Part shown: in pieces, positions 15,400 to 58,910 of the stretch
Numbering within the stretch: the first letter of the stretch is position 1
Layout: every line of letters starts with the position of its first letter
Assembly: GCF_035083965.1 (NCBI RefSeq)
Contig: NC_089739.1
Span: 11,768,001-11,832,000, forward strand
Direction: 5' to 3'
DNA: 64,000 bases
Source: Branchiostoma lanceolatum
Lineage: Eukaryota > Chordata > Leptocardii > Amphioxiformes > Branchiostomatidae
Translations under genes and position numbers: made by a program
Notes under the pieces: generated by a model
Database searches by the model: none
Told to the model about the DNA's origin: nothing
The model's input: the letters and a program-made list of their open reading frames with translations, nothing else

Positions 15400-15661
15400 T
15401 GGTGACGTAACAAAATGATCTACAGTTCAAGGTTGTTTGGGTTTGTGAAACAACTGATTCGTTTGATCGTTTTATTAGCTTTAATATGTAAAAATAAATT
15501 GGCATAAATTAATCTCGCTTACTGCTGCACCTCGTAATGTGGACAGATGATGATGATTATGATTTTAATGATGATGATGGCATTGGTGACGTAACAAAGT
15601 GGTCTACAATTCAAGTTTCTTATTGTGTTTTGGGTTTGGAAAGAACTGATTTGTTTTATCA
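15400..15661 (-). repeat. Short tandem duplication in the channel gene 3' UTR
   Basis: Two similar 80-base stretches (15400-15476, 15581-15661) share ATTGGTGACGTAACAAA, TCTACA.TTCAAG and CTGATT.GTTTGAT-like sequence, about 180 bases apart. Each contains a TGACGTAA element (CRE-like). Confidence 0.55.
15471..15476 (-). terminator. Poly(A) signal AATAAA of the mosaic channel gene
   Basis: TTTATT on the plus strand reads AATAAA on the minus strand, about 200 bases past the stop codon. The surrounding 3' UTR segment is partly duplicated (15400-15476 and 15581-15661). Confidence 0.5.
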
Positions 15662-15678: not shown

Positions 15679-17616
15679 TTACTTGCCAAAATACATGGTC
15701 ACGGGAACGGACGCCGCGATACTGACGATGTACAGGACAAGAGAAAGCCTGTCCAGGACCTTAGCCAGCAGGGTGTAGTCAGACACCTCCTCTTCGTTCG
15801 CCATAGCCTTGGCCAGCTCCTTTATCTCATCCTTCACTTCTGTAACCTCGTTCTTTACCTCTTTAACACTAGAGATCAGCTCAGAAAAGCCGGAGGAGCC
15901 GGTGGCCTCCAGAGCTGCGGGAGAGGTTGATGGCTGTCCAGTCTTCCCATTGCCATCACCGAAATCAATCGCCGCTACGCCATCGGTTTGATAGGCGTAG
16001 TTGGTCTTCTCTGTGGCAGGGTCGTCAGTCAGACTGTCCTCTGCATCACACGAACGCTTCTCTTCTGTTAGATCACCCAATAGCATCATCCTAGATGAGA
16101 AACAATGTTGGGAAGTAAACAGTGCTTCTCACTGCTGTCAACATTAATGCATAAACATACGTTACGTGAGGGGTTCAATGTTTAGAAAATGTTTTTTTTT
16201 CGGGTAAGATGTAATTGGTAAATTGTAGTCCTCGTGTTCAAAGAAAACAATTTTCTAACAAACAGAAAAACTAGAACTTAATGCTGTTGAAACCGTAAGT
16301 AGTAGAGAAACTAATAAAAATGAATATGAAATATTTTAGAAATACTTATTTATTTCTGTATCAGAAATACATACTGATAAAGTTTCAGATGATAAGTAAT
16401 AGATCAGATCAGTATATGATATAGTATTTTATACAGAGACTATAGAAACTAAAATAATGGAACGAATGGTAGGTACTTTGAAATGTATCGGAGAAAAATA
16501 ATCCTCGCTGTTGGAGACAGGCTTCCCTCCTTGTCGTGAATAATGATGATGGCAAGGGTGAACAACAAGAACAGTCCCATCAGGCCCATACACACGATGA
16601 TCAGCGTAGCTGTAACATTAAACATTAATTAACAGCGAGCAGATTAATATTGGAATGAGCAGAGCACTTTAGACTAATGCTTCTGACTGTTTACAGCTTA
16701 AAGGTACATATCCAATATATGAAACACTTCTCTGATACACAACGGATCCTAATGACCCCCAGCGGGAGTCTTCACACTTCATTGAACATTAAAAAAAATC
16801 TCAAGATTTATTCTGAAAATCTCAAAATTTTGTGCTAGATCTTGAGATTTTATGAGACGATCTTGAGATTTTATGAGACAATCTTGAGATTTTATGAGAC
16901 AATCTTGAGATCTTTTAAAAGGTCTCAACATTTTTCCAAGATGGTTTCAAAGCATCTCAAGATTTTTTCACAACTTCTTGTATCTTGAGACTTTTTCAAA
17001 GCATCTTGAGATGCGATTAAAAAATCTTGAGATGCTTTGAAACATCCTGAGATTGTCTCTCAAGATTGTCTCATAAAATCTCAAGATTCATGTACCTACA
17101 AGCTGTAAACGGTCAGAGGCATTAGTACAAAGTGCTCTGCTCATTCCAATAATAATCTGCTCGCTATGTTATGTACGGTTACAAGAATGCTGACGGAGAC
17201 AAATAAAGACAGCCTAATTGGTTACGTTACAACTATCTTCAACAAAAAGTCGGGTCATATCTAATTGCACCCACCGAAAAATGGCAATGCCCCCTTGACA
17301 GGCAGTACGTCTGTCACAAACACAAGAGACACGACCATGGAGAGTAGGATGGTCACTCCGAACGAGATCCGGTCTCCCCTGTCCAAGGGCATGATGAATG
17401 TGATGATCATCAGTACAACCAGGATGATGCAGGGCCCAACAGTAGTGGCGATGTGGAACAGGGGGATCCTCTGGAGATGAACAGCAAAGCACGCTTCTCT
17501 GTTGTCTTTTGCATAGATCTTATCCTTCCGGTACCATTCTCCTTCATGTGTTGCCGTAGAGTAAGAGTTGCATGGACTGTTTTCTTTATCTGCTGCTTGG
17601 CTCCCACCTTGGCATT
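15679..17616 (-). CDS. Cys-loop receptor transmembrane domain, M1 to M4
   Basis: Exon 17616-17275 carries M1 ([20 protein letters not shown]) and M2 ([20 protein letters not shown]). Exon 16609-16477 carries M3 ([15 protein letters not shown]). Exon 16090-15679 carries the rest of the cytoplasmic loop, a charged coiled-coil-like helix ([18 protein letters not shown]) and M4 ([20 protein letters not shown]), and stops at 15681-15679. By alignment with nicotinic receptors, an Asp sits at -1', Leu at 9' and Asp at 20', and the chloride-type Pro-Ala insert is absent, so a cation-selective pore is predicted (inference). Confidence 0.9.
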
Positions 17617-20059
17617 CTAAGATCAACAAATGGTTCCAAAAAAATCATGAGTTAAAAGTATTGCAATTATGAAATATGTTTAAGATATTTACATTAAAGT
17701 GAATTGGGGTTGACGACGACACAGCAACATCCCTTAGTCGAATTGTATATTGTTTTTGTTTATCTGTTCGCACTTAAAATGATAAATACATAACAAACAC
17801 GAGAGAGCTATAAATGACATATAACAGCGCAAGGGAGACCGGAAGCTTATACTTATGGAAGCTTATACTTATGTAAAGGCCCCCCTTTATCAACTTATAA
17901 CAATCTAAACAAATCAACTACACAAACAAAAAGAAAGAACTTTGGATAATCAATAAAGGAAAGAATACGGTTAGATGATTTCCTCCTCTTGTCTGCAAAT
18001 GCCAAACTAGTAGTTATGAATTATTTTCCATTTAAAACATTGCCTTACACAATATTATTTCTATTAAGCTTTTAGACACTAAACTAAACTAAACTAACGT
18101 AAAGAAAGCTGAACTAAGAATTATTTGCAAAATACTTACGAATGGTTTGTTTGATCGCTGTGATTGCAGCAAAACAGACGTGGCATTCCATGGTGTCTGC
18201 AGGAAAGTAGAAGGGGTCTGCATCACACACGGTGGTGGTCAGGGTCTCTACACTCCATTCTACACGGCCATTGTTGTTCACTCGGACCGGTACGTCCTTT
18301 GGTAGGCCTTGGCCCGGATTGGCACTGCGAAGTTATCAAGAAATTCTGGTTATCTGTCTTCTTTCTAGCTCAGATCATTTGTTTTTTTTAATTACCACAT
18401 ACCATTGTGGTGCAAAGCTCGTACAATACTGGGATAATAGAAGAACTTTATTGCGCGACAATTGTAACGGGTACAATGTATGGCAATTTGCAGATACATA
18501 ACGATCTACTTTTTCTTCTTCTCTTTTACTGCTTAGCCTCATGTCTGAGATTATCAGGAGTTGCGCATGGGTAAGATACAACACAAATGCCCGGTACAAA
18601 TAAAACGAAGGGAAAATAAAGAAAAGTCGCTAAGGAACGTAAACAACTGAATTTGTGTGTGCAAAGGACAGGACAAGTGAATTTAGTGAGTTAGCATATA
18701 TTTACATATATACAAGGACGTATTTATTTTTAATATGTAAACTATTTTTAGGTTTGGCCATGGTTTTGATCTGTAAAAGAATTAATATTCATGATATATC
18801 TAATGAAAGGAATGTTATGTATAAATCTATTACTCTAAAGTGAGTAGATTGAAGAAGCGCAAACGTACTCTCTCTTTAGAGTCAATATTGGAGTCCAAAT
18901 ACTTTGCGTTTGGGAACGCATCTATAAGCAGCGACACCTGTGCTGCAGTGCAATGTGAACCAATCAAAATTGCCCTGAACAAGGTGACAGATGATCATAT
19001 AGTATTTTTTAAAAAGTTTGGCAATCGCTTTGGTCTATATAATATTCATTATTTTTCTAATGAAAGGACTTAGATGCATAAATCTATTATAAAGCTAGTA
19101 GATTGAAGGAGCACGAACGTACTCTCTTTTTAGAGTCAATACTGGAGTCCAAATTCTGCTGCCTGGAACACTGAGCGTTGTGATGTCAACATGGTATTTC
19201 GGATCCCAACTCAGTCGGCTGTCTTGCCATGTCTAACAAAAAACAACATTTTACTATGCAAAACAAAAATGACAAAGAAAAAGGATATGTTGACTTTTCA
19301 AGACCAAAATGACGTCTCTAGACTTTTTTTATGAACAAAGGGTTTCTTGAAGTAAAGTTTCCATAACTGTGCCAACTTACAAAATCTATGACGATAGACG
19401 CAACGAGTTGTTCCTTCTTTTCATCCTGAAATAAAAGTTACAGCATGAGTTAAGATGTATTTTTGTTCCAAATTTAAAAAGGGTAAATTCTTGCGTGAAT
19501 AGTTTCATCAGGTTGGTAAGTCACTGAATAAAATGACTCTTTGTTGTTTGTACCCAACTAAGTGATTTATTCAACCGACGTTTCGGTGACCATCTGACAC
19601 CTTCCTCATGGCATTGTAGATTCCTGTAAAAGTATTTATTTGTTAATACTTTGATTTGGGAACGCATCTATAAGCAGCGACACCTGTGCTGCAGTGCAAT
19701 GTGAACCAGTAGGAATTGCCCTGAGGAAGGTGACAGATGGTCACAGAAACGTCGGTTGAATAAATCACTTGGTTGTGTACAAAGAGTTTTTTATTCCGTA
19801 AATTCTTACTGGAAACCGAACGGGATATCAAATTTGCAACAACAACAAAATCAAGACCATAGCATGTCCAAGTCAAAAGATACAAAAAACAGAAGTTCTG
19901 CTGCAATACCAAGGTCACATACCAGGGGGCCCAAAATCGACTTTCGTCTTCCCATCACCTAACCATATTTTAAATATCATCATAATCCATCAAGAGGTTC
20001 TTGAGTTATGCTGACTACAATAGTCCGGAAACACAAACACACAGACACACAGACACACA

Positions 20060-20134
<75 letters not shown>

Positions 20135-21709
20135 CAAAAACTATATCTCCATTTTTCATGGAGATAATAATTATAATTACCAAGTCGACCAGCTGTTCCA
20201 CAGATCCAGTGAAGGTGATGACGACATTCTCAGGTGGCAGACTCGCACTGTAAATCTCCAGTAGATCATCTTGTAGCCGTTGCTTATGGTTTACTACGTG
20301 GGGTGTAAACGTATGAAGACATTTAGTAAGCTATAGATATATCATATCTTTCGTTTGTGCCCATATGTTGTCTATACACAAGGCAAACGACAAAATATTC
20401 AGAAATATGTACGAGTTCTCAATGTACATGAAGTATTTTAAATCTTAAATCATTTACTAAGCATACACAAAACAATAGTCTTGTAGTAGGTGAAGTTGAT
20501 CTTTGACATGGAAACGTTTACATGCCAAGAGTAATCTGCAGTTGAGCTGCAAAAAAAGATGCAGGCTTGAATAGAGCTATGCGCAATTCACCTGTTTCAA
20601 AAATAGTAAATTCTCAACAATCACCTGAACAACTTGGCTTGTCGTATTGCCAGACGCCTCCTCCGATGCACCTGACTTCCCTGGTGAAACCAGACTTAAG
20701 TGTGTAGCCTTCGTTGCACGTGTAAGTGACCCTTTCACCTACGTTATAGAACCTCTTGCTTGGACTTCTCTTGCCGTAGTTTGGAGGACCTCTATCCCAA
20801 CAGCCTTCGGCATCTGGTGGAGTAAGGTATAACAAGTGGCAAAACATCTGATGAGCTAGCTAGCTGGATAAAAAAAATAGTCTAAGACGAAAATGACAAG
20901 CAGTGACAGGTAAACTATACATGGTAACTACAAGACATATGATTTTCTAAATATCATTAGCTGTGATTGACAATATGTTATTTTCTTGCAAAGTCTGATG
21001 CAAGACCTGCTCCTGCAGTTAAAAAAGCCGCTAGAGGGCCCAAACCTACGCCCTAGAGCTATCCACCACTCAAAAATCACGACCAAGTTACAGCCAGAAT
21101 ACTAGATGTTAAAACAGAAAGTTCCACTGCAGTACCATAACAAGTAATGTAGTGTGTCGTTCTCAATTCGTTACATGATAATTTACCACACGGAATGACG
21201 TCACATTCCTCTTGGTTATCGTCTTTTGTCAAACAAAATGGCCGATCGAGGCTGGTTGGGTTGCGGCAGTAGTTGTTATCCAGGTTAGCCCATGGGTACT
21301 CTGTCTTGTAGTAACCAGCTTGCGCAGCTGACCACTCAACACACTCTGACCCGGATGTAGTTTTACTCCATGTTCCACGGTAGTTTATGCCAATACCATG
21401 GTAGCAAACTGAGGACGAGAAACGAACAGATATTAGCATAAGATCGTTCAAATATACCAATGATATATCCTAAAAAATACATAATGAAATTTGACATTTC
21501 TGCTTTTTTTTCATTTTGGAATTAAAGTATTCTTTGATTAATCATGCAAATTTCGTCTATAAATATTACTTTCTCAGTTACAAATGTCAAATGTTTGAGA
21601 GTCCTGTCGTAGAACGTAGTAGATTTATAAAATTTCCTAATCATTTTCTTCATACCCATACTCACCTACCAAATATGAAAAGGCTGCACCCAAGTCTTCT
21701 CGAGTCATG

Positions 21710-21783
<74 letters not shown>

Positions 21784-24700
21784 ACAATTAATATCAAGCA
21801 GACAACCAAATGATACTTGAACCATTACTTCTTGGCGAAGCTAAAGATGGACAAAGAAAATTTACACAATAGAGTAAAATGAAAATGTTAAATGATACCA
21901 AAAAAAGTTTCCTTTTACCCTCATTTTCCCTCTTGGCTGGCTTTGGATTCCAACAACTGTGTTTGGATGATGGAAACAAGCTACATCGAGGCAGCAGGTC
22001 TTTTATCCAGTCATCAGCCATGTTGAGCACTTCCTCACACCAGGAACGACATGGTACCAGTTGTGTACCCGTAACGTTACGCCTAACAAACATATCAGTT
22101 GATTTAGTACCGACAGATGAAAGGACAACCTTTTTACAACGTGATTTTTGTTACATTGCACACGCGTCAATAGATGCAATGTTTGAAATGTTCCTTATTA
22201 TCTCCATGAAAAATGGAGATATAGTTTTGGGTGTGTCTGTCTGTGTGCGTGTCTGTGTGTTTCCGGACTACTATAGTCAGCACAACTCAAGAACCTCTTG
22301 ATGGATTACAATGATATTTGGTATGTGGGCAGGTGTTGGGGAGCCGAAATTCAAGGTCGATTTTGCCCCCCCCCCGTATAAGACCTTGGTACTGCAGCAG
22401 AACGTCCGTTTTCGTATCTTTTGACCTGGACGTGCTATGGTCTTGATTTTTTGTTGGCAGATAGCTTGCGATGTAATGAAGAAGTGGCGCAGGTTTAGGC
22501 CTCCTTGCAGCTTGTTCTAGTTGAAGCGTCTCTTTGGATTCAAGCAACAGTTTAAATTGCATTCTGGAAACAATCAAGTGGCATCGAAGGCCGTTGATAA
22601 TCATGCAGCTTATAAAAAGATAGCTAATATGTTAATTCAAATAAATTTTGTCATAGCATGTTTTAATACTTACATGCATGAGGTCGTGTTGGTTGCATTT
22701 TGAGACGAAGAGCAGTAAGCCTCATTCTCGACGGGAGCATTACATTGCGGGAAAATGACCGTCGATACGAATTCTCTCAACTCTGGGTGGTACTTTCCTT
22801 GTGTGCTGTACGAACTGTTAAGCAGCTCCACGGCAGAGGAATTCTGTATCTCTTCAAACGTCATCTGGCCCAGCTGATTAGGTAGCATGGCCAGTCTACT
22901 GTCGAGTTGAAAATCCCCAGGTATTGGCATGCACACTGAAACGTTAGAACAAATTATGCTTTCGATAATGAAGAGACTAAGCATTAGTGACCGTAGGTGA
23001 CTTCAGCATAGAAAGGAGAGGAATTAATTGATTACCATTAATTACAACTAATTAACATCTTTATTGACATTGATCGAAAGGGACACTGGACTCTCAGGTT
23101 CTGCATTGATAGCTGCCATGAAGGACAGATCGTACTGGAAAAACTTTATTGATTGTATTTCACCGGATTAAATCCGGCAGCATAATGATGATAATGATGA
23201 ATGATGAGAAGAGATGCCATTGGCTTACCACAACCGTCCTCATCACTCCCGTCCGTACAGTCCGTGGCCCCATCACAACGCTTCCACGATAGGATACATG
23301 CGCGCCCGTGTCCACAGCGATAGTATCCTAGGGAGCAGCTGATTCCTGTGCCATGTAAACAGTTAGGAAGTAGAGTTCTTCAAAAATGATTATGCTTGAT
23401 TTAAAGAAAATTATAGCTTCACTACGGTTATGTAATAAAATATGCATACGTTATCATATTGCATCACTCATGCCGCGATCTGCAGAGAAACGTAACCTAC
23501 CCCATGAAATATTTTGACTATGCAAATGACTTCCACATTTACATAATGTATTCTTTGTGATGTACACCTTTAACTAATTTACACATGTCACAATGTTGAC
23601 ATTCCTGTCATCTATCACTTAGATTAACTATGTCGCTTTTGCATTTGATTATGAAAATTAGGAAGCTATTGCAAAATTGGTACCTATGAATGTTTTATCT
23701 GCTATAAACTAAATATGTTACATTTATTCGAGTCCTTTTGTACAAAACACTGGAATTATAGAATTTTCTTATTAATGTTCAAATAAAGTTCCAATTTGCA
23801 AGTTTCTTTCTACGCTCGTTCTCAATGAAATGTGCAAAATAGCGATTTTTAGGGTCGAAAAATTGATCAGCTCATTTTTCAAGCAAACCTACCTCATTTT
23901 TTAGCTGAACATCTCCTTTTATGATCCCCAAAATATTACAGCTAATTTATCACGGGAAGTTGCCGAAAATCTTTAAGCTTTGATTAGATGTCCTTGGACA
24001 TTACCCATATTTTTGCGGAAAAAATTTTGAACATCAGTAATAAGATACTTCAATTTTGGAGCTTCCATGTCGTGACATCGCCTTCAAAACCTATAGTTGA
24101 GGAGTCAGTATCTCTGGTAAAACGTCTGTCAAATTTAGTGCCGGCGTGCTGACGATTGCTGTATAACTGTTTCATTCAGGATTAATATTGTCTGGATTTG
24201 TCTTTGCATTTCGACTTGTTTGAGATATCTAACAGAGACGGAATCAGATAGTTCTTGCCGAACGTTCGATCCTCCGTTGATCCGAATAATTTAACTCTTA
24301 CAACATCTATAAAATATTCAACGTTGCGAACTAATACTGCTTCGTCAGTAAAGTATTTGGGACGGAGAGGGAATCGCGGAAAAACGGTAATGGAGATTAC
24401 ATACTGTCGCCAAAAGGCGTGTTCACCAGACGTAAGTCGCCAAGTTGTAATTGATCGACTTCTGATTTCTTTTCTTCTTCAAACATATCAAAGGCTATAG
24501 ATTACTTATTGTCTTGAGGTTTATAAAGAATTCAACTTTGGAAACAAAATCTGGAAGAACGAGTAGAAAATTGGAATATGATAACCCTACAGGGGGTTTC
24601 TCTCAGTCGAATCTATACTTTTCTATTTCTAGTTCAAACGCTTTTGCCTTATGGTGCACAACTACAAAAAGTTCTGCGCCAGGTTATGTATTTTCCGCAA

Positions 24701-33494: not shown

Positions 33495-33526
<32 letters not shown>

Positions 33527-36500: not shown

Positions 36501-39014
36501 CCCAAGCCTATGTGGTCGAACTACACCGAAGTTCTGCCTATTGCGTATGAAGTCGTCAGTCTACTGTCATTATTTGTTGCCAATATCATGCAGTTTGCTA
36601 TCATCATACTATTTCTTAGAGAAAATATGGAGTAAAATTGTGAGAAACAAATTTATAGTTAGTATCGTTTCCATCCGTGCAAAATGTGTTCTTTTGATCT
36701 TTTTGCATAGATTATAAAAATGAGCAGGAATTATTCACACCTTCATAAGTCATACTATTTCTTTTACATTGACAAAGCTACGTATGTACAACGATCACCA
36801 AAAAATGTTAAAAGACGATGATTTTAATTTTTATTTTAATTTCAATTTTAATTTTAATCTTAATTCTAATTCTAATCCTAATCCTAATCCTAATCCAAAT
36901 CCAAATCTAAATCTTAATCTTAATCTTAATCTCAATCTCAATCTCAATTTTAATTCTAATTTTAGTTTTTATTCCAATTTCAATCTCAATCTCAATCTCA
37001 ATCTCAATCTCAATCTTAATCTTAATCTTAATTTTATTTTGATTCTAATCCTAATCCTAATCCTGATCTTAATCTTAACCTTAACCTTAACCTTAACCTT
37101 AACCTTAACCTTAACCTTAACCTTAACCTTAACCTTAACCTTAACCTTAACCTTAACCTTAACCTTAACCTTAACCTTAACCTTAACCTTAACCTTAATT
37201 CTTATTCTAATATTTGAAATACTCTTTGAATTTTGAAAAGAGATATATAGGCTACAGTACAGATTTATCACTGGTTCACATTAGATGAACGTACTTGTAA
37301 GACAGACCACGCCTGCATCTTGGCCATGATCACAGTCGTGAATCGTCCATCCTGCGTACGAGCAGTCAAACAGGCTACTCTCGTTCCCATGGCACCCTAG
37401 GTCATCCATGTAGATTGGCCCTGTTCCTGTGTTATAAAAGTGCTAATCAGTAAGTCGCCAAATATCGATCATAAATTCATGATAGGACAACAAATTGAAG
37501 TTTAAAGAATAAAAGCTGAACCGTACCCTGTCCAAAATAGGCATCAGTATGAACCTGGTTTGCCTTGGGATAGCCCAGCATTCTGCAAACGACGTCTGCA
37601 TCATTCCTCTCAAAATTGTCGTGGCAAATTGTTCCCCAGTTGAAACTGTTGGCCGGCCGAACTTCCACACGTCCTAAGTTTGGGCCGGAACCGCCAACAA
37701 GGCGGATTTTGCTGGTATCTAAAATACGATATATAAAATGCGATATATAGAATACTTTATATAGAATACGATATATAAAATACGATATATAAAATACTAT
37801 ATGTAAAATACGATAGATAAATATGAATATGAATATGAATATAAGTATAAAAGTCGTAACTCAGCCTTTTCGCAGTCGGGTATCAATGTATAGATCAACC
37901 ATTAGTACTTAATCAGGCATACAGAGGTCCTGAATAGATATTACTGGTTGTTTTATTTATGTATATTTTTCTATAAAACTATTAATTGAACAAATAATCC
38001 ATCCACCTACCGCAGACAACTCCGACATCTTTTCCATGATGACACTCGTGAATCCCCCACCCTGCGTACGAGCAGTTATACAGACTAGTCTCGTTCCCGT
38101 CACACCGTAGGTCATCCATGTAGATTGGCCCTGATCCTTGATTTAGAAAAAGAAGCGATAGTTCGAAGATACATTAATATACTCATACTCATATGCAGAA
38201 ACATATCAAAGTGCTTGATGTATAATCAAAGATTAATGTGTAGAAATGTTGTTAAGTGAGACAAGTCAGACAACATGAGTCAAATCCTACCTTGGCCAAA
38301 ATGCCGAGATGGAGTAACCCTAATGGCCATGATGTAGCCAAACATTCTGCAAATAACGTCTGCATCCTTAATGCCGAAATTGTTGTTACAAACTGTGCCC
38401 CAGTTCAAACTGCCGGCCGGGCGGACTTCCACACGTCCTTCGTTTGGGCCGGAACCTCCAACAAGGCGGATTCTGCCGGGTTCTAAGGTAGGAGGGTGAG
38501 TCAATGATTTTGTTTTATATCACAAGCACATTCTTTCATCAAATGAGTTGAAATTGGGCACAATTTTAAATGCATATCTTCTTGAGACTGAAATGTATCA
38601 ATTTATTTGTTGGTAATTTTTTTAATGCGCGACTGACTAAGTCACTTGGTTCAAAGGTAAACACACCCTTGGAAGTCAGATCGATGCGGAAGTCAAGTAG
38701 ATGCATCTATATATCTATCGATCTATTGTCAACAAGCTAACTGCCACCAAAAAATTAAGACCATAGCACGTCCAGGTCAAAAATTACAAAAACGGAAGTT
38801 CCGCTGCAGTACCAAGGTCACATACAAGGGGTCCCAAAATCGACCTTGACCTTTGTCTCCACAACACCTACATACATACCAAATATCATCGTAATCCATC
38901 CAGAGGTTTTTGGGTTATGCTGACTACAAGAGTCAGGAAACACAAACACACAGACAGACACACAGACAGACAGGCACAGGCACGCCAAAAACAATATCTC
39001 AATTTTTCATGCAG

Positions 39015-39057
<43 letters not shown>

Positions 39058-42000
39058 TCATTTCTTTAAGCAGTGGAACGACCCCAGTTATTCTCAAGAA
39101 TGTATGGCTCGGTGATTTCAGGACATTGATACCATATTCATAGAGTCGATTCCACATTACCGAGAGGGTGTTTGTTGCCTTTTGTTCTAACATTTACAAA
39201 ACCTTTGTAACAATCTATGTGAGATAAGTAACTGTTAAGAACAATTTCCAACATGTATTTGATGTTCTAGATATTTTCTGCTGTGTTCCAACATGTTAAA
39301 CAAATTTCCAACATTAAACACATTATTTGTATTAGTTTCTAAACTGTTGCAACATAGATAATTCATTTGTTTGAACATGTTCCAACATTCTACAAACATG
39401 GTATAACTGGGTCAGTGGGCTGGGAGCAGGGCAATTCACACATCCCTTCAAAGTATAGGGGATTAGGCCTAGGTACCATGCATAGACACCACAAGACAAA
39501 AGAGTTGCCAGTGTCCAGACGTGAATTCTAAAAATATACAGATGCTGACAATAGAGCGTGATTAGCACCTACTTTTATGGGGGCAATAACCTAAATCTAC
39601 CATTTTGAGAATGATGCAAAATGTTGGAACATGTTCCAACAGTGAAACAATCACACAGATGTTTGAAAATTGTTCTAAATAAAGAGATATTTGTGCAATT
39701 ACTTTCATAATATTTCCAAAATATGTAGATGAGTCAAACATGTTCAAACTTTCATTTCTAATAGTGTGAACACTCTGGAATTTTTTTGACTAAAATAGTC
39801 TTTTCTCTAAAATTGTTCAAACTTATCAGCAATTTCATCTGAAAACCCTCTTGGTGACATAGAATTGACTCTATGTTCATTCACTAAGTATGTACAGTAC
39901 ATCAAATAGAAAATTTTCAACCCGGTTTTTCAGTTTCTGCTGTCCGTGCTATACAATGTTTTCTTTCATCATACAAAATGACAAACTTTCTACGCACTTT
40001 TGATATCCAGATGACATGTACCAATCAATACAGGAGAAATGTGATCTAATGAGTAAACTGGAACATATTAAACTACTTAAGGCACTGACAAAGTCACTTA
40101 AAACATAATGTTTTAGTTGTATGAATGCTTTACAGCTTCCAGTATCTGTAGAATTCTAACCCTAACTGCGATTATCTTTATTTCACCTGCACAAGTTGGT
40201 GTAGCATCACTCCATGTACTGTTAGACTGGCAAGTGATATTGGCAGTCCCCCACAGCTGGTACCCGGCCATACAGGTGTACCTGACTGTCAATCCTGGTG
40301 TAAAGTTACTGTTCTTATCTCTCGTCCCATTGGCAGGCACACCAGGATCCCAGCAATGGTCTGCGACACGGCCTGAAAAAAGGACAAGGCAAAGTTAAGA
40401 ATCTTCTTCCTCGCAGTAACTGGTTCATACCTTTTTTTTAAACTACAACTTCAATCTTGTGTTGTTACAGTTTACCCCGGAATCCAGAGCAATTATACCG
40501 GCCCGCGTCCCGAGCTTACCCGGGCCTACCCTCCCGCTGGCCCCGACAAACTACCCCGCCCCACTTCCCGCTATAGCCCACAAGATCGGAGCTTGTTTGG
40601 CTTGCGGGAAGTGGGGCGAGGTACGTTGTCGGGCCAGCGGGAGGGTAGGTCCGAGGAAGCTCCGGGCGCGGGCCGGTGTAGGTCCGGGAAAGCTCGGTAC
40701 AATTGCTCTGGATTCCAGGGTAGTTACAGTTTTGCTTTACGGCTGTGAGTCGTGGACCATGGATGCTAGCTGCTTCGGAGACCAGGAAACTCGACGGAAC
40801 CTTCACCAAGATGTTGCGTGCCATATACACCGAACCTTGGTAGAGGCACACAACAAACAAACAACTCAATGGCACCCTTCCACCCATCTCTTCTGAAGTC
40901 AGGCGTCGTTGGTTAAGCCTCACTGGTAGGGGTGGGTACCGGTACAGAAAATTCAGGTCCGCGGCCGGTCCAGGTCCAGGTCCAGAGGGTCAGCTAGGTC
41001 CTGGTCCGGACCTGTACCTGTACCTGTACCTGTACCTGTACTTGATTAAAGTAATGTCGCAGTACATCATATTTTGAGAGCGAGACACAAGTAAATTAAG
41101 GTCTCTGTGTTCAAATTGTATATTAGAATAATGTGATTATTCTCGGTGCACACTAATGTGCACTTGCCGTCTGTTACTCATCTACATATGATTAACAGCT
41201 AACGTCTTCGAAAAAGGAAACCACGACTCGTTAAATCTGCTTATTTTGTATTAGACCGGTTATGTGTGACCGCCTGCTGGTAGCCTGGTACTGTGAATTT
41301 TCTAATCGGTCTATAGAAAATACCGGTTTTGTACCACCCCTAATCACTGGCCATGTTATTTGCCAGGTGAACCCGCTGGTAAACTGCTTATTCGGACACC
41401 AGAAACCACAAGGAGAGGAGGTCGTCCATACGTGACATAAAGAACATTATCGGATCGGAAACTTGTCTGAATAAAAAAGGCTCGATCGAAATGATGTATA
41501 GCAATAGAATACTGGATACTAAGCTTTGTGTATGCTCCTAGTATGACTATGTATGTATGCATATATGCATGGCAGTTCGCATTGAACAGCACACCATGGT
41601 TACTGTGTGAAGCGTTATCAAAGATCTTACTTATGTAGGATAACTGGAACCCCTGGCGAGTCCTTGAAATGTCAGACTTGAACCTCAGGAAGACCATGTT
41701 AGATGTGCTGGTGATAGGGGTGATTGGCGTCAATGGTTGGCCTGACAACCTGGAATAGATAGTCAAGATCAGGTACTCAAGCTAATATAAGAATCTAAGT
41801 TGGTTTTGGTTGTTTGCTTGCATTGCGTACCCGGTAAACCGCCTCATGCAACTGAAGAGTACAAGCTGCATATCCGGACAAACTTATTGGATCCACTCAC
41901 ACCGGGAAGGACAAATCAAGGGACCCTGGATTCGAACACAGGACCTCTTGGTTATGGGCAAAATACCCTGCCACTACGCAACCGCGATGCCCCTTTTTTT

Positions 42001-44941
42001 AGGACAGTTTTATTTCTTATACAGAATAATCAAGTGGGTGTTGTTTATGTGTTTGTAACATTACCTTTGTAACTCTGCAGCTATATCACTGGCTCCATCG
42101 AAGATGGTCAGAACGTCGTACTCTTCCTCAGTGTCGAAACTGTCGAACGTGAGACGAATGATGCTTCCTTCTGGTGCTGTGATTGACCACTTACAGTCCC
42201 CATTGTTGCCATAGTTACTTGGGTAGTTCGGTGACGTCACAGTACCTCCAGAGGAAGCCGCCAGGCTACCGCCGCATTCATCAGTCACTATGGGATCATG
42301 GAAACATTTACCCACCCTCCTGAAAGCAGAGCCCCTATCGCTCGATTCGTTAGCTCGCTCGCGTAGGGGCCCTGCTCTTCAGCCCCTGTAGACACGGTTC
42401 TGGCGACGTTACTGACAGTTGCTCATAAATGATTAATGAGCTATCTTTTTTGGCACAATTTGGCGGTTAATTTGTTCTTAACCTAAAGTAACGATGTGAG
42501 ACAAAACCTGATTGGTCGATAGCTTCCCAGCGTCCTTTGCGCTTTTGCTCTAGATGAGGTTTAGCAAACCCTCTGATTGGCTGAAGCTGTTTTGGTGGCA
42601 ACGGCGCCAAAGCCGTGTCTACGTATATACCGGGGCTAAAGAGCAGGGCCCCTACGCGAGCGAGCTAACGAATCGAGCGATAGGGGCTCTGCCTTCAGGA
42701 GTGTGTATTTACCGAGAGCAATTAGAATCCCGTAATTATCATGGAAGCTCATCTGTGTTGGTAGTAATCATAATACAATGCTACACTTTCTTCCAGCATT
42801 AAGGTATTCACTAATCAAATTGTCAACGTACGACTACTGTCGCCTTCTCCAGTATCAATAATGACCATACAAGAGGAGTATAAAGGAGGCCATATACATC
42901 AGGGCACTCCAGCCATCACTCAACAGAGACAGTGTGCGTTATAAACTTCCTGGCACGTTTGAACAATTGCTGACGTCATGTATCCGTAAAGACACGTGTC
43001 AATAAAGTCACGTGTCTGCAACTCTCGCGAGTTTACGTTCGGAAGTGATTAGTCATTATTGATCCTGAAGAAGGCGAAACTCAGGCAATTTAAGGCCTGT
43101 GACAATTTCTGTCGATCATGAATTTCGAACCGCTCAGTGACCGCAGGTAACCTGGCGAGGCCATCTCGTTTTTAGAATAGCCCAATCGGGTACAATGTAA
43201 CGTTATATTGCAAAAACAGGAATTTACTAAATATTTGGCATACTAACTACTTTTGGCGGGACTTATGAATAATAACAGTACAGATATTGATCAAATATCT
43301 ATCAAATATTGACACAAGTAGAGGCTATTAACAAAAAGGGACCCCCGTGGAAGCTGCAAAATGGTACAGGCCGAACATGTTCGAACGTTCGAAAGGCCCC
43401 CCGGGGTGTGGTATGGCGCGAAAACGGCGGGGAATTTACACATCAGCTTAAATCCCCGTAGTATTCCGGCTTTAAATGCTATTTCCCCGGTCAAAATCAC
43501 ATGATTCCTAGAAAAAGCAATGAATCTGTTAGTATTATACCTTACTGAAAAATATTATCCAAGGCTATTTGACCTTAGAATGATCATATTTTAGCAAGAG
43601 CAATTTTTGAGGGAAAATTAGAAAACAAATCACTGTTTTTAATGTTTTGGCCCCGAATAAAACACGATATCGTCAAATTAGACGAAATAGCCTTGGACAG
43701 ATTAATTTCAATTCTAATTATATCCTATGTCGTAAAAATTCAAGGTTAAAGTCCCTGCCCCCACCGGGGAATTCATAGATCAATGAATAGCAGTATTTTT
43801 TTCCCAAAATCTTTGTTTTTAACCCAAAAATATATGAGATTGAAAATTTTATTGTTTTGATATTCTAAATATTTGTTATTTCCATCATCTGGCCAATTTT
43901 TTTTTAAAGATAGATCGATACATCAAAAGTTACGTGCGAATAACTGCTAACCTAGCCAACCCCCAGGTGTCACAGGCCTTAATTGGGCTGAGAAGTGATC
44001 GTTGAAAATTTGATCCGTGAATACCTTAGAAAATTTAGCATTGTAATAGAATCCCGTAACTTTGCGGAGGAATTCTGCAGTTTGTCCAACCGTGTTGCCA
44101 AGGGACGTTATTAGGATTTGGTCAATCGCTGTACGTTAATGACAGTTTTTGAAAGGAGGGCATAGATTATAGTTTACCGAATGAGCTAACGGCGAAATGA
44201 CTGGCTTGTCTCCATATAAGGTCAAATACTGAAGCCTGGACTGCTGCGAATTGACGACAAGCCACAGATTTCAAAAGACGACTGAAAAGGAAACACATAA
44301 GTGTGTCCTGCAGGAATAAGCCCATAACGTAATTCTTTAAGTGACCAACTGGAATAAAAATAACAGAAAGTTATATTTTTGTCGATATGTACGATTTTGC
44401 TCTAGATGAAAGTAGGAATAGTCAGGTTATTTGTTGTTTCTATTCATCATATGAACCAGTTTTAGCTTCTCTTTTAGCTTACTAGAAATGTTGGGTATAA
44501 CAAGTAGCACTTTCTGTAAATAATAACTATATGGGATATTGGTTATTGAATGAGGTAGCATCAGTTCTTTCTTTTGGAACAGGATAGGATAGGTTCTTTT
44601 GTAACCATCTAGGAAACTATATATATTACTTCTGTAAATGCAGAAATGTTCGCGGGGATTTGATTTCGCGGTAAAGAGAAAATGGAGTGTTCGTAATGGT
44701 TTTGAGTTCGCGTTTGAAACAATAGTAGCGCTACAGTTACATAATGGAAACAATTTTCGCGGCGATTTTAAGTTCACGGTAAAGAGTTCACCGCAAAAAC
44801 CGTGAACATAAAACCACCGCGAACATGTCTGCATTTACAGTATCTTCTGCAACTCACTTTGATAGGATGAATCAGAGTAGTCATAGTCATAGCTGTAGGC
44901 ATTGGAACTGGAATCATCTGACTGAGAATCAGTGATCGGGG
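15679..44941 (-). CDS. Giant mosaic receptor fused to a Cys-loop ligand-gated ion channel
   Basis: Minus-strand exons in coding order: 44941-44858; 42287-42065, 41749-41631 (CUB); 40372-40187 (CCP); 38482-38291, 38136-38011, 37718-37527, 37426-37295, 36293-36102, 35335-35210, 34522-34331, 33921-33796 (four SRCR); 33365-33150, 32678-32516, 31991-31858, 31074-30915, 30117-30011 (YWTD); 29761-29486 (WxxW); 28537-28091 (F5/8C); 26722-26615 (EGF); 26129-25743 (CTLD); 23345-23229 (LDLa); 22935-22674, 22082-21919 (Fz); 21408-21187 (kringle); 20813-20625 (CCP); 20293-20181, 19425-19381, 19232-19123, 18324-18140, 17616-17275, 16609-16477, 16090-15679 (channel). All junction phases agree, giving about 6,180 coding bases. 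The start codon and signal peptide lie upstream and were not found. Predicted product: a membrane channel subunit with a very large adhesive or scavenger-type ectodomain. Splitting into two genes is possible but not supported by the CCP-channel junction. Confidence 0.75.
16633..17166. mobile_element. Inverted-repeat element with internal tandem motif
   Basis: Arms of about 80 bases (CAGCGAGCAGATTAATATTG..., TGTTTACAGCTT) are inverted at the two ends. The core is a run of CTTGAGATTTTATGAGAC-type units in both orientations (16795-17095). The element fills most of the 665-base intron between the M1-M2 and M3 exons of the channel. Confidence 0.7.
18140..20293 (-). CDS. Cys-loop receptor ligand-binding domain (four exons)
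   Basis: Exons 20293-20181 ([26 protein letters not shown]), 19425-19381 ([15 protein letters not shown]), 19232-19123 ([27 protein letters not shown]) and 18324-18140 ([14 protein letters not shown], then the Cys-loop). The Cys-loop is C-x13-C with FPAD in the middle. The loop D Trp (TWQD) is kept. The loop A Tyr, the loop B Trp and the adjacent Cys pair of loop C are absent, so a classical acetylcholine site is unlikely. The LBD end and pre-M1 region lie on exon 17616-17275. There is no signal peptide of its own. Confidence 0.87.
18745..19150. repeat. Partial duplication of channel exon 3 and its intron start
   Basis: Segments 18745-18898 and 19002-19150 are similar (TCTAATGAAAGGA, TAGATTGAAG.AGC, TAGAGTCAATA.TGGAGTCC). 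Both include the last codons of exon 19232-19123 (IWTP.LTLKR) and its GTACGT donor. A Penelope-like fragment (18899-19001) lies between them. Confidence 0.65.
19510..19800. repeat. Inverted Penelope-like repeat pair with hammerhead-like cores
   Basis: Two inverted arms carry CCGACGTTTCGGTGACC (19575-19608) and CTGAGGAAGGTGAC...GAAACGTCGG (19721-19753). The plus-strand arm fits CUGANGA, stem II (GGTGAC/GTCAC) and GAAACGUC. Intronic in the channel LBD. Confidence 0.6.
19838..20166 (-). repeat. Dispersed repeat with ATGGAGATA end and internal CA array
   Basis: Minus-strand copy: TCTCCATGAAAAATGGAGAT, CA/GT array (20037-20130), TCCGGACTATTGTAGTCAGC, CTCAAGAACCTCTTGATGG, then TTGGTATTGCAGCAGAACTT. 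Related copies: 22195-22520 (+), 32165-32510 (-), 38738-39020 (-), and fragments 1227-1375 (+) and 20990-21145 (-). Confidence 0.7.
20037..20130. repeat. (CA)n microsatellite inside a dispersed repeat
   Basis: A pure CA run embedded in the ATGGAGATA repeat copy at 19838-20166. Confidence 0.9.
20625..20813 (-). CDS. Sushi/CCP domain next to the channel
   Basis: A 189-base phase 1-1 exon encodes [34 protein letters not shown] and YDKPSC. Four Cys, standard CCP. It ends in phase 1, and only 331 intronic bases separate it from the first channel exon, which also starts in phase 1. Confidence 0.9.
21187..21408 (-). CDS. Kringle domain
   Basis: A phase 1-1 exon of 74 codons encodes [35 protein letters not shown] and CDVIPCG. 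Six Cys and the NYCRNP signature are diagnostic of kringles. Fz followed by kringle is also the order in ROR receptors, but here a CCP and an ion channel follow instead of a kinase. Confidence 0.92.
21714..21786. repeat. (CA)n microsatellite
   Basis: CA run in the intron between the Fz and kringle exons. Confidence 0.9.
21919..22935 (-). CDS. Frizzled-type cysteine-rich domain (two exons, reduced Cys set)
   Basis: Exons 22935-22674 and 22082-21919, joined by a phase-2 intron through an ATG codon. Landmarks are [25 protein letters not shown] and [11 protein letters not shown]. Canonical CRDs have ten Cys; here the positions before HPEL (Tyr) and after F-V (Ser) lack Cys, while others are kept. 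The domain could bind Wnt or lipid ligands as known CRDs do, but the loss makes this uncertain. Confidence 0.82.
22195..22520 (+). repeat. Dispersed repeat, ATGGAGATA family, copy with short GT tract
   Basis: Plus-strand copy starting ATCTCCATGAAAAATGGAGA, with only a short GTGTCTGT tract, then AACTCAAGAACCTCTTGATGG and GGTACTGCAGCAGAACGTCC. Lies in the intron of the Frizzled-type domain. Confidence 0.68.
23229..23345 (-). CDS. LDL-receptor class A domain
   Basis: A 117-base phase 1-1 exon encodes six Cys and ends [16 protein letters not shown], the Ca2+-binding acidic signature of LDLa repeats. It lies just before the Frizzled-type module. Confidence 0.88.
24238..25130. repeat. Intronic segment with repeated GGTAAYGGAGMTTAC motifs
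   Basis: The 15-base motif occurs at 24386-24400, twice as a perfect 30-base palindrome at 24706-24735, at 24884-24898 and at 25066-25080. No coding frame is convincing. It may be a foldback element with subterminal binding sites; family unknown. Confidence 0.5.
25595..25740. mobile_element. Foldback MITE, CTGTAAATGCAG family, copy 1
   Basis: Ends CTGTAAATGCAG and GCATTTACAG with inner repeats of TTCGCGGTGG and ACCACGCGAAC. It abuts the 3' end of the C-type lectin exon (exon ends at 25743). Confidence 0.7.
25743..26129 (-). CDS. C-type lectin-like domain with EPN and WND motifs
   Basis: One phase 1-1 exon of 129 codons starts [17 protein letters not shown]. It has [19 protein letters not shown], the mannose-type Ca2+ motif E-P-N, then a WND motif and CSSAYKFIC. 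The Ca2+-site residues are intact, so sugar binding is plausible (inferred). The donor (GTGCTG) is weak, and a foldback MITE begins within a few bases of it. Confidence 0.9.
26615..26722 (-). CDS. EGF-like domain (LRP type)
   Basis: A 108-base phase 1-1 exon encodes [21 protein letters not shown] and DLQEDGVTC, with the last Cys codon split by the intron. The six-Cys spacing is that of EGF modules paired with YWTD propellers. It sits two modules downstream of the propeller instead of beside it. Confidence 0.82.
27067..27277. mobile_element. MITE with about 60-base inverted ends
   Basis: GTGCTACGATTTCCT and ATATCGCATATCATAGC near the left end recur inverted at the right end (GCTATGATATGCGATATCG, AGGAAATCGTAGCAC). 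Intronic between the F5/8C and EGF exons. Confidence 0.6.
27397..27430 (-). ncRNA. Hammerhead-like core, diverged
   Basis: The minus strand reads CTGACGA, an imperfect stem II (AAGTAGC-GGAT-GCTTCTT) and GAAACGTC. Same family as 28607-28640, 1.2 kb away in the same orientation. Confidence 0.5.
28091..28537 (-). CDS. F5/8 type C (discoidin) domain
   Basis: One phase 1-1 exon of 149 codons. Landmarks are [37 protein letters not shown]-like [13 protein letters not shown] and YLRELDLFG. These match discoidin-type jelly-roll domains that bind glycans or lipids. No flanking Cys pair is obvious, so this resembles Cys-poor discoidin variants. Confidence 0.82.
28607..28640 (-). ncRNA. Hammerhead ribozyme core (Penelope-type, short stem III)
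   Basis: The minus strand reads CTGACGA, stem II AGACAGC-GGAT-GCTGTCT, then GAAACGTC. That is the complete conserved core (CUGANGA ... GAAA) with a two-base-pair stem III and a GUC cleavage triplet. Bases after GUC (TGCCTG) can partly pair with bases before CTGACGA (GTTAGTCA) as stem I. Activity would probably need a dimer. Confidence 0.65.
29486..29761 (-). CDS. WxxW (mucin/CILP-type) domain
   Basis: A single phase 1-1 exon of 92 codons. Landmarks are [41 protein letters not shown] and [10 protein letters not shown], which match the WxxW domain known from gel-forming mucins and CILP. It lies between the YWTD propeller and the F5/8C domain. Confidence 0.87.
30011..33365 (-). CDS. YWTD (LDL-receptor class B) beta-propeller, five exons
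   Basis: Exons 33365-33150, 32678-32516, 31991-31858, 31074-30915 and 30117-30011, with intron phases 1, 2, 1, 2 inside. YWTD-type motifs are LYWMD, IYWTN, MYWIN, LYYSS and IYWTQ, with a sixth weaker blade in the last exon. That fits a six-bladed propeller like those of LRP proteins and nidogen, which bind protein ligands. In LRPs an EGF module usually follows directly; here a WxxW and an F5/8C module come between. Confidence 0.85.
30579..30857 (+). mobile_element. LINE fragment, ORF2 C-terminal end, open for 92 codons
   Basis: Reads [20 protein letters not shown] ... [11 protein letters not shown] ... [10 protein letters not shown] and ends in TAA. The LRWFGH and GRP..RW.D motifs are typical of LINE ORF2 tails. 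It has no internal stop, so it may be recent. It sits antisense in an intron of the YWTD propeller. Confidence 0.72.
31710..31742 (+). ncRNA. Hammerhead ribozyme core
   Basis: Reads CTGAAGA, stem II GGTGTCT-GAC-AGACACC, then GAAACGTC. The AGC after GUC can pair with GCT just before CTGAAGA, a short stem I. Intronic in the YWTD region. Confidence 0.6.
32165..32510 (-). repeat. Dispersed repeat, ATGGAGATA family
   Basis: Minus-strand copy ending TTTACATGGAGATAATC on the plus strand, six bases from the second YWTD exon (ends at 32516). Confidence 0.62.
33474..33605. repeat. (GAT)n/(TAA)n trinucleotide array
   Basis: Long ATG/GAT array passing into TAA units, in the intron between the last SRCR and the first YWTD exon. 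Confidence 0.85.
33796..34522 (-). CDS. SRCR domain 4 (two exons)
   Basis: Exons 34522-34331 and 33921-33796, phase 1-1. Landmarks are [56 protein letters not shown] and DAGVVCG. The four SRCR copies are very alike, including DNA shared around TACGAGCAGTTAAACAGGCT, consistent with tandem duplication or ongoing gene conversion. Confidence 0.9.
34540..34812 (-). repeat. tRNA-related SINE-like repeat
   Basis: The plus strand contains ACTTGAACCCCGGTCCTTCT and CAGACCACTACACCACAG, the complement of tRNA-like promoter boxes. Lies in the intron before SRCR domain 4. Shorter tRNA-like pieces: 8785-8830 (+), 30465-30530 (-), 41850-41990 (-), 52625-52700 (+). Confidence 0.5.
35210..36293 (-). CDS. SRCR domain 3 (two exons)
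   Basis: Exons 36293-36102 and 35335-35210, phase 1-1. Landmarks are [55 protein letters not shown] and DAGVVCG. The 766-base intron between the half-domains holds an inverted Penelope-like repeat (about 35690-35995). Confidence 0.9.
35685..35995. repeat. Inverted Penelope-like repeat pair
   Basis: Arms contain ACCGACGTTTCGGTGACCAT and GAAGAAGGTGACAGATGG...GAAACGTCGG. Same family as 19510-19800, slightly decayed in the CUGANGA box. Lies in the intron of SRCR domain 3. Confidence 0.58.
36818..37218. repeat. Hexanucleotide array grading into (AACCTT)n, telomere-like
   Basis: About 400 bases of six-base units. Diverged (TTTAAT, AATCTC, AATCCT) at the left, they become about 20 pure AACCTT units at 37076-37198. 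The complement is TTAAGG, one change from TTAGGG. Lies in an SRCR intron. Confidence 0.85.
37295..37718 (-). CDS. SRCR domain 2 (two exons)
   Basis: Exons 37718-37527 and 37426-37295. Landmarks are [46 protein letters not shown] and DAGVVC. The second exon runs two codons past the last Cys (Leu-Thr) to a GTACGT donor, unlike the other three copies, which end at Gly. Six Cys, group A pattern. Confidence 0.88.
37725..37850. repeat. AT-rich minisatellite (AAAATACGATATAT)n
   Basis: About eight imperfect units, then a GAATAT run, beside the acceptor of SRCR domain 2. Confidence 0.75.
38011..38482 (-). CDS. SRCR domain 1 (two exons)
   Basis: Exons 38482-38291 (64 codons) and 38136-38011 (42 codons), both phase 1-1. 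Landmarks are [49 protein letters not shown] and VGVVCG. Six Cys across two exons is the known pattern of group A SRCR domains. SRCR domains bind microbial, lipid or protein ligands in scavenger-type receptors. Confidence 0.9.
38738..39060 (-). repeat. Dispersed repeat, ATGGAGATA family, followed by a TA array
   Basis: Minus-strand copy with GCTGCAGTACCAAGGTCACA and CAGAGGTTTTTGGGTTATGC, then an ACAGACAGAC tract, then a (TA)n run at 39008-39054. Confidence 0.62.
40187..40372 (-). CDS. Sushi/CCP domain (N-terminal copy)
   Basis: A 186-base phase 1-1 exon encodes one CCP module with four Cys: [25 protein letters not shown] and WSDATPTC. This matches complement control protein repeats of about 60 residues. 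It lies between the CUB and the first SRCR. Confidence 0.88.
40473..40722. mobile_element. 250-bp foldback MITE with 8-9 bp target duplication
   Basis: Ends TACCCCGGAATCCAGAGC and GCTCTGGATTCCAGGGTA are inverted, and much of the GC-rich body is also palindromic. GTTACAGTT flanks both sides (40464-40472, 40723-40731). It is inserted into a LINE fragment. Confidence 0.72.
40723..41470 (+). mobile_element. LINE ORF2 fragment split by a nested hAT-type MITE
   Basis: [13 protein letters not shown], then [14 protein letters not shown] (shifted frame), [17 protein letters not shown], the MITE at 40927-41342, then [13 protein letters not shown] and RRGGRP. These are the usual order of motifs near the end of LINE ORF2. 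Several frame changes mark it as decayed. Confidence 0.65.
40927..41342. mobile_element. hAT-type MITE, copy 1
   Basis: Ends TAGGGGTGGGTACCGGT and the inverse (ACCACCCCTA), with an eight-base near-duplicate CTCACTGG/ATCACTGG on the flanks (40919-40926, 41343-41350). This end type and target length are usual for hAT elements. Nested in a LINE fragment. Contains short TACCTG repeats. Confidence 0.7.
41631..42287 (-). CDS. CUB domain (two exons)
   Basis: Exons 42287-42065 and 41749-41631, split by a phase-2 intron. The first has [26 protein letters not shown] and [20 protein letters not shown], all standard CUB landmarks including acidic residues that can bind Ca2+. The second has [14 protein letters not shown] and GFQLSY, the usual CUB end. 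CUB domains mediate protein-protein and ligand binding outside cells. A 394-bp inverted-repeat element starts 25 bases upstream of the first exon. Confidence 0.9.
42313..42706. mobile_element. 394-bp element with about 90-base inverted ends
   Basis: Both ends carry the palindromic partner of GCAGAGCCCCTATCGCTCGA and GGGGCCCTGCTCTT. ATTTACC is repeated on the flanks (42306-42312, 42707-42713). It lies 25 bases upstream of the CUB exon acceptor. Confidence 0.7.
44632..44840. mobile_element. Foldback MITE, CTGTAAATGCAG family, copy 2
   Basis: Same ends and TTCGCGG/CCGCGAA internal repeats. It ends 17 bases from the 3' edge of exon 44858-44941. Confidence 0.7.
44858..44941 (-). CDS. Ser/Tyr/Asp-rich exon, first exon found of the mosaic channel gene
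   Basis: Acceptor TTTTTTCAG and donor GTGAGT bound an 84-base phase 1-1 exon. It encodes a low-complexity segment of Ser, Asp and Tyr (for example [10 protein letters not shown]), possibly a tyrosine-sulfation or linker region. Its last base joins the CUB exon to make ATG (Met). No signal peptide exon was recognised upstream, so the N-terminus is open. Confidence 0.6.
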
Positions 44942-47820: not shown

Positions 47821-47984
47821 AAATTTTGCATCGGGCACATGTGACACAATGCTAACAATCTCGCAACATTTTCTTTTCAACTGATAACTCATTTGATTTA
47901 GAACCCCTCCCCCTCATTGTATATCACGGTCTGTCTGTCTACAAACCTACCGATCGGCACAGCCCTTACCTTTGGTAAAGATAA

Positions 47985-57968: not shown

Positions 57969-58085
57969 AGGGATGAATCCCAACGATGTCATGCGAGCCA
58001 GAACCACAAGGCGGCGTCGCTGACACATCTCCTATTACACTAGAGAGTCATGCATTTTAATTGAAACCTTTTGAGTCCTTCTAAC

Positions 58086-58091
58086 AATAAA
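58086..58091 (+). terminator. Poly(A) signal of Kazal gene 1
   Basis: AATAAA, 118 bases after the TAA stop. A second AT-rich AAAATAAA follows within 20 bases. Confidence 0.7.
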
Positions 58092-58165
58092 GAATTGTTA
58101 AAAATAAAAGGCAACTGTGTGTCCTTTGAGTTTTATGTTTAGTATCTATGATCGTTTTGATGATT

Positions 58166-58814: not shown

Positions 58815-58910
58815 TATAGTGCAGAACGTTCATTTACACACTCCATTGTTGAGAAAGACCAAGTTCACATAGTTTAATCCCCTTTGTCTCTTCGAGAAGC
58901 GTCCATCACC

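Follow-up and report, generated by a model that had tools for sequence, protein, structure and literature searches.

The window, meaning the whole stretch of 64,000 nt of Branchiostoma lanceolatum DNA analysed here, contains no N, and the gene model described below consequently spans no assembly gap. Its minus strand carries 33 exons between 44941 and 15679, rebuilt independently, which join into a single open frame of 2,059 residues with the sole stop at its end; with an added 5' signal exon the model comprises 34 exons and 2,078 residues. The preliminary description had counted 35 exons and 14 modules for this set, where the module count is 15 (CUB, CCP, SRCR x4, YWTD, WxxW, F5/8C, EGF, CTLD, LDLa, Fz, kringle, CCP). 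The identities and order of the modules that it gave, followed by a ligand-binding domain (LBD) and membrane segments, are borne out by Pfam, with Fz below the cut-off, and so are its compatible exon phases and phase-1 module borders. The minus-strand exons were scored with our own splice-site and codon scoring, all sites for each domain frame were listed, and the set was picked by hand so that the domains were kept whole, because an automatic exon chain by itself fell apart into numerous short false genes. Three acceptors (1.0, 1.1 and 2.0) and one donor (1.9) are weak, and individual borders may shift by a few residues.

Two further groups of exons in the window lie on the plus strand. A series of phase 1-1 exons between 102 and 8743 repeats an acidic Asn-/Glu-rich motif (VDNN...EAPE and variants), and possibly represents one gene with duplicated exons. 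Kazal-type inhibitor exons are found within 55074-62268 (56418-56554, 57400-57588, 60758-60894 and 61303-61504), apparently belonging to tandem genes, with a signal-like first exon ahead of them at 55074-55116. The window contains no tRNA, and no Rfam match at gathering thresholds.

The module string and its 5' end

The exons of the model that precede the channel domains are listed below in the order in which they would be transcribed.

47970..48024, minus strand: exon 1, putative signal peptide MAAKKFAAGIVCWLIFTK, donor phase 1 (donor 11.3, in frame with exon 2)
44858..44941, minus strand: exon 2, Ser/Asp/Tyr-rich linker, phase 1-1 (acceptor 9.7, donor 8.3)
42065..42287, minus strand: CUB, first exon (Pfam CUB 5.9e-24, splice sites)
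41631..41749, minus strand: CUB, second exon (Pfam CUB, splice sites)
40187..40372, minus strand: CCP/Sushi 1 (Pfam Sushi 1e-9)
38291..38482, minus strand: SRCR 1, first exon (Pfam SRCR, four stretches, 8.2e-122 for all four together)
38011..38136, minus strand: SRCR 1, second exon (Pfam SRCR, splice sites)
37527..37718, minus strand: SRCR 2, first exon (Pfam SRCR; weak acceptor, 2.0)
37295..37426, minus strand: SRCR 2, second exon (Pfam SRCR, splice sites)
36102..36293, minus strand: SRCR 3, first exon (Pfam SRCR, splice sites)
35210..35335, minus strand: SRCR 3, second exon (Pfam SRCR, splice sites)
34331..34522, minus strand: SRCR 4, first exon (Pfam SRCR; weak acceptor, 1.1)
33796..33921, minus strand: SRCR 4, second exon (Pfam SRCR, splice sites)
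33150..33365, minus strand: YWTD propeller, exon 1 (Pfam Ldl_recept_b 2.8e-12; LRP2/LRP4/LRP6 structures)
32516..32678, minus strand: YWTD propeller, exon 2 (structure matches; weak acceptor, 1.0)
31858..31991, minus strand: YWTD propeller, exon 3 (structure matches, splice sites)
30915..31074, minus strand: YWTD propeller, exon 4 (structure matches, splice sites)
30011..30117, minus strand: YWTD propeller, exon 5 (structure matches, splice sites)
29486..29761, minus strand: Mucin-2 WxxW domain (Pfam Mucin2_WxxW 9.9e-25)
28091..28537, minus strand: F5/8 type C (discoidin) domain (Pfam F5_F8_type_C 4.5e-10)
26615..26722, minus strand: EGF-like, LRP type (Pfam FXa_inhibition 4.7e-10)
25743..26129, minus strand: C-type lectin domain (Pfam Lectin_C 2.3e-21)
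23229..23345, minus strand: LDL receptor class A (Pfam Ldl_recept_a 3.8e-9)
22674..22935, minus strand: Frizzled-like cysteine-rich domain, first exon (Pfam Fz 6.1e-5, under cut-off)
21919..22082, minus strand: Frizzled-like domain, second exon (Pfam Fz, under cut-off; splice sites)
21187..21408, minus strand: kringle (Pfam Kringle 1.2e-16)
20625..20813, minus strand: CCP/Sushi 2, last module ahead of the channel (Pfam Sushi 1.6e-7; donor 8.6)

The Pfam scan was run on nine pieces jointly covering all 2,059 residues, and every module passes the cut-off apart from Fz, which scores 24.0 bits where 32.1 are required (E 6.1e-5); these domain matches cannot be chance. The Fz piece gave no match at E up to 1 in a one-sequence search against solved structures and has 8 cysteines where 10 are usual in Fz domains, so that its identity is only weakly indicated. 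The YWTD propeller matches the structures of LRP2, LRP4 and LRP6 and is thus of the LRP type. The EGF-CTLD splice completes the codon of the sixth and last EGF cysteine; with that residue credited to EGF, the cysteine count is even in all extracellular modules. A hydropathy scan of the model protein found no 19-residue stretch with a mean of at least 1.6 before M1, which implies that the module string alone would be without a membrane anchor. Two of the introns in this part of the model contain open stretches on the plus strand (30552-30854 and 40420-40893), for which two pieces gave no Pfam match and whose phrases resemble those of non-LTR retrotransposons.

All 33 exons splice in frame. In the full model phase 1 is found at 25 of the 33 introns, and the other eight interrupt modules or the channel, while all 17 borders that join signal exon, linker, modules and LBD are in phase 1. 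This agreement is nevertheless weaker evidence of a single gene than the domains themselves, since shuffled modules use phase 1 in any case. Active 1-1 phase exon shuffling is described for lancelets by Huang et al. (PMC4284660), in keeping with the one-gene model. Since exon 2 lacks a start codon and opens in phase 1, a signal exon is needed upstream of it. On the two strands of the window four signal-like first exons combine phase 1 with a donor of at least 8 and a hydropathy of at least 2.0; the exon at 48024-47970 is among them, and another of the four is a TG-repeat. The interval 47951-48150 has 21 CpG per 200 bp, the joint highest value in the window, against a window median of 5. The exon is likely the signal-peptide exon of the gene, which would extend it past the coordinates of the preliminary description.

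The channel half

Seven further exons complete the frame, and canonical poly(A) hexamers follow the stop: the AATAAA listed here, and ATTAAA with its first base at 15569 and at 15485.

20181..20293, minus strand: channel exon 1, N-terminal helix of the LBD, phase 1 start (Pfam Neur_chan_LBD 5.6e-30)
19381..19425, minus strand: channel exon 2, 45 nt, phase 0-0 (splice sites, structure alignment)
19123..19232, minus strand: channel exon 3, 110 nt, loops D and A (splice sites, structure alignment)
18140..18324, minus strand: channel exon 4, Cys-loop (splice sites, structure alignment)
17275..17616, minus strand: channel exon 5, LBD end, M1 and M2 (Pfam Neur_chan_memb 1.4e-21)
16477..16609, minus strand: channel exon 6, M3 (Pfam; weak donor, 1.9)
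15679..16090, minus strand: channel exon 7, intracellular loop, M4 and stop (splice sites, Pfam)
15471..15476, minus strand: AATAAA past the stop (poly(A) hexamer scan)

Neur_chan_LBD (PF02931, 5.6e-30) and Neur_chan_memb (PF02932, 1.4e-21) both exceed the Pfam cut-off, and four hydrophobic membrane segments are present at the C-terminus only. The best solved-structure match is a BRIL chimera of a nicotinic acetylcholine receptor (nAChR) alpha subunit (9.4e-36), followed by an nAChR beta chain, presumably that of Torpedo (2.5e-34), the alpha-4 chain 8ssz_A (2.3e-33) and 5-HT3A (3.8e-32). The Cys-loop in exon 18324-18140 has two cysteines with 13 residues between them and keeps FPxD. In M2 the -1' residue is Asp and the 9' residue Leu, and the Pro-Ala insertion is missing, RGDRISFGV aligning with CGEKITLCI of the alpha-4 chain. 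By established rules an acidic residue at -1' without a Pro-Ala insertion before M2 marks a cation-type pore, and the pore is hence predicted to be of the cation type and nAChR-like. In the same alignment the loop A Tyr is replaced by Lys and the loop B Trp by Ile, and loop C has no double cysteine; for these reasons the channel half is not an alpha subunit, and its sequence characterizes it as a nicotinic-type, cation-type, non-alpha subunit. The first three LBD exons measure 113, 45 and 110 nt; they start in phases 1, 0 and 0 and the third ends in phase 2, sizes and phases which presumably agree with those of CHRNA7 and nAChR genes, the intron at the junction presumably occupying the position of nAChR intron 1. 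According to PMC6354393, introns 1-3 are common to all vertebrate nAChR genes. The likeness to nAChR subunits covers the LBD, the spacing of the Cys-loop cysteines, the four membrane segments, the cation-type M2 and presumably the LBD intron phases 1-0-0-2, while the fifteen modules before the LBD and the absence of the alpha-face residues set the present model apart.

No second channel and no extra module copies were found in the window, where module-wise tblastn outside the model exons gave E values of at least 0.28; one such match, 18900-18868 (E 0.29), is by its DNA a true duplicate of an exon fragment. The tandem duplication concerned (18783-18903 / 19040-19157) provides a second copy of the 3' part of the loop-A channel exon together with its donor, either a relic or an alternative exon half. 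The channel introns also contain a dispersed 89-nt repeat, 92% identical in its two copies (18909-18997 and 19655-19743), and the intron before M3 a long inverted repeat (16634-17165; arms of 76 nt, 91% complementary) around tandem TCTCAAGAT-like repeats, with the look of a small transposon.

The replaced residues of loops A and B, the missing double cysteine and the duplication of a loop-A exon fragment in the next intron could suggest that the channel half has become a relic without function, or a non-conducting, dominant-negative partner. However, none of the seven channel exons is interrupted and the last one closes with a proper stop, the Cys-loop, FPxD, the M2 pore residues and M4 are kept, and non-alpha subunits normally lack the alpha-face residues. 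A relic or a non-conducting partner is accordingly considered very improbable.

The junction of the last CCP with the channel

Two features of the interval between the modules and the channel are listed below.

20294..20624, minus strand: 331-bp intron (if one gene) or intergenic gap (if two genes) (hexamer and signal-exon scans)
20518..20546, minus strand: possible alternative terminal exon, AQLQITLGM and then stop (acceptor 9.8)

At its 20625 end the last CCP exon has a strong donor (8.6), which suggests that it is meant to splice onward. The LBD exon starts at 20293 with a weak acceptor, 3.9 compared with a median of 6.2 for the 33 model acceptors, and the join reads KPSCS-V-NHKQRL, which places the last CCP straight onto the first LBD helix with no linker. 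The interval is shorter than the median intron (331 bp versus 523.5 bp), and its CpG content is ordinary (7 CpG in 331 bp, no rise). It contains neither AATAAA nor ATTAAA, but the same holds for 12 of the 32 introns, a total that includes the gap; the absence of hexamers is accordingly weak evidence and was rejected as proof of one gene. A scan for signal exons returned one candidate in the gap, 20509-20458, with a donor of 0.3; as 164 such candidates occur on the minus strand in 63.8 kb, 0.85 is expected in the gap by chance, and the candidate was rejected as the channel's signal exon for being at chance level. Under a stricter cut 31 candidates remain in the 63.8 kb and none in the gap, where 0.16 is expected, and this zero says little. 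A signal exon of the channel's own within 20294-20624 and a poly(A) site past the CCP had been named in the preliminary description as features that would separate the halves: the first was sought and yielded only the chance-level candidate, and for the second no canonical hexamer is present in the gap, although a variant, AGTAAA, lies at 20458, 3' of the possible terminal exon.

These observations can also be read as two adjacent genes, one for a secreted protein made of the module string and one for an ordinary subunit of the nicotinic type, joined in error because both use phase-1 borders. Against one gene stands the weak acceptor at 20293 compared with the stronger one at 20546, use of which would end the protein, giving a 9-residue tail and a stop with the AGTAAA beyond. 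The intron before the first ligand-binding exon is, moreover, the usual place of the signal exon in such channels, and the channel's signal exon may lie elsewhere, in the introns of the mosaic. The phase match at the junction is expected for two genes too, as modules and nAChR intron 1 both favour phase 1, and phase agreement was therefore rejected as proof of one gene. An error of the same kind, a Lectin_C/fn2 join in lancelets, was exposed by ESTs according to PMC4967905, in which Banyai and Patthy hold that such lancelet differences are probably prediction errors and document false joins of neighbouring genes. On the other hand, two genes would require a 3' end, a promoter, a 5' leader, a signal exon and an intron within about 225 bp past the stop, unless the signal exon lies elsewhere; there is no CpG rise, and the lone signal-like candidate sits in the would-be 3' end itself. 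Internal AGs scoring at least 9 occur in 9 of the 32 introns, so that the acceptor at 20546 is not special and may be noise. Two falsely joined genes are on balance considered unlikely.

Another reading, which we regard as equally unlikely, is one gene with two products: alternative splicing would choose between a secreted mosaic ending at 20546-20518 and the full channel, or else a nested promoter would give a short channel. The acceptors at 20546 and 20293 are both in frame with the CCP exon, which makes a secreted isoform via 20546 possible, and a nested signal-like first exon is also possible, as two phase-1 candidates with a donor of at least 5 and a hydropathy of at least 2.2 lie between 45000 and 20294, one of them a TG-repeat read as Cys-Val. 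The short intron would, however, measure 78 nt, compared with a minimum of 100 in the model, and the poly(A) hexamer is non-canonical.

A single gene agrees with the overall arrangement, in which the mosaic is preceded by a strong putative signal exon whose 5' end is rich in CpG, and canonical poly(A) hexamers follow the channel stop and are absent from the gap. The mosaic is without an anchor and the channel without a credible signal exon in the gap, so that each half lacks what the other has. The simplest reading of the sequence is the one proposed earlier, a single subunit whose ectodomain has about 1,600 residues, with one open frame; the argument from phase that accompanied it does not discriminate. 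In our judgement the mosaic and the channel probably share one transcript.

A subunit with a possible anchoring ectodomain

The explanation we somewhat favour, as far as the sequence can guide it, is one gene for a nicotinic-type pentameric subunit with fifteen modules between signal exon and LBD, serving as an ectodomain that anchors in cis. The modules, of about 1,590 residues and presumably shuffled, would separate the signal-peptide exon from the ligand-binding exon, having likely entered an old phase-1 intron between these two. The subunit is predicted to assemble as a cation-permeable pentamer. The N-terminus of a Cys-loop pentamer lies at the apex, away from the membrane, and the module string could for this reason project extracellularly without blocking assembly. 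The most likely use of the modules would be as a cis anchor that holds the channel at sites marked by matrix, by mucus, by an adjacent cell or by a synaptic partner, and cis anchoring is considered the most likely role by analogy with proteins that hold acetylcholine receptors. Since the alpha-face features, the aromatic residues and the double cysteine, are lacking in the subunit, opening would probably depend on agonist bound together with alpha-type partners.

The missing alpha-type agonist face, and the last CCP spliced without a linker onto the first LBD helix, could instead point to a sensor: a ligand binding to the modules, or force exerted on them, would directly gate the pore. Anchoring requires no new gating mechanism whereas direct sensing does, and we know of no Cys-loop channel gated by such added modules; direct gating of this kind is improbable, somewhat more so than two separate genes. 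The gating by microbes, mucus, matrix or Wnt-like ligands that the preliminary description raised is speculative. A broader version, in which exon shuffling would have made the fifteen-module ectodomain rather than a neurotransmitter the main input, sensing microbe, mucus, matrix or cell and gating or positioning the pore, possibly with a splice switch between secreted and membrane forms, is likewise doubtful.

Anchoring by fused modules would parallel the job done in trans by LEV-9 (CCP) and LEV-10 (CUB, LDLa) for worm acetylcholine receptors. According to PMC9083331, LEV-9, LEV-10 and Hig take part in the clustering of acetylcholine receptors, and CCP, CUB and LDLa modules occur in LEV-9, LEV-10, Hig and Hasp, proteins which cluster or hold these receptors; these are, however, separate proteins acting in trans and unfused to the channel, and the LDLa of LEV-10 is dispensable (PMC9083331). 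The CUB/LDLa auxiliary proteins of the LEV-10 and Neto type have a single membrane pass and a cytoplasmic tail, in contrast to the present model, whose first membrane segment is M1. YWTD, EGF, LDLa, Fz and kringle modules also occur in LRP4 and MuSK/ROR, proteins of the acetylcholine synapse or their kin. The likeness to these components of the vertebrate neuromuscular junction includes the match of the YWTD propeller to the LRP4 structure, but LRP4 and MuSK/ROR are receptors that cross the membrane once and have different cytoplasmic portions. Kringle, C-type lectin, SRCR, CUB, LDLa and discoidin modules on a membrane protein are likewise found among amphioxus adhesion GPCR predictions (PMC2246102); those are seven-helix proteins, whereas the model has no 7tm Pfam match and carries channel domains instead.

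The architecture of Cys-loop channels is very conserved in animals. In Cys-loop receptors the signal peptide stands directly before the LBD, while in the present model unrelated module exons lie upstream and the gap holds no credible signal exon. A pLGIC core linked to other domains was evidenced only at the genome level according to PMC4795631. The statement in the preliminary description that it knew of no described channel with such an architecture calls for a caveat: PMC4967905 names, in one sentence, 269420_PRF0 of B. belcheri, with Neur_chan_memb in a novel architecture, which is possibly of the same kind. The protein is there among the architecture pairs identical in B. belcheri and B. 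floridae, with no Swiss-Prot ortholog found, and the same paper cautions that novel lancelet architectures may be prediction errors and that annotation errors can converge (PMC4967905). Among the literature matches listed it is the only one that combines Neur_chan_memb with lancelets, others in print being possible. The kind of gene proposed here may therefore already be listed, undescribed, as 269420_PRF0, and if that is the present gene its conservation in two species would help, though convergent annotation errors weaken the point. If true, the fused anchor would be a natural record of trans clustering and would allow channel anchoring to be tested in a single polypeptide, and the gene would settle, for one striking case, the question of whether such novel architectures of lancelets exist or stem from faulty prediction (PMC4284660 versus PMC4967905).
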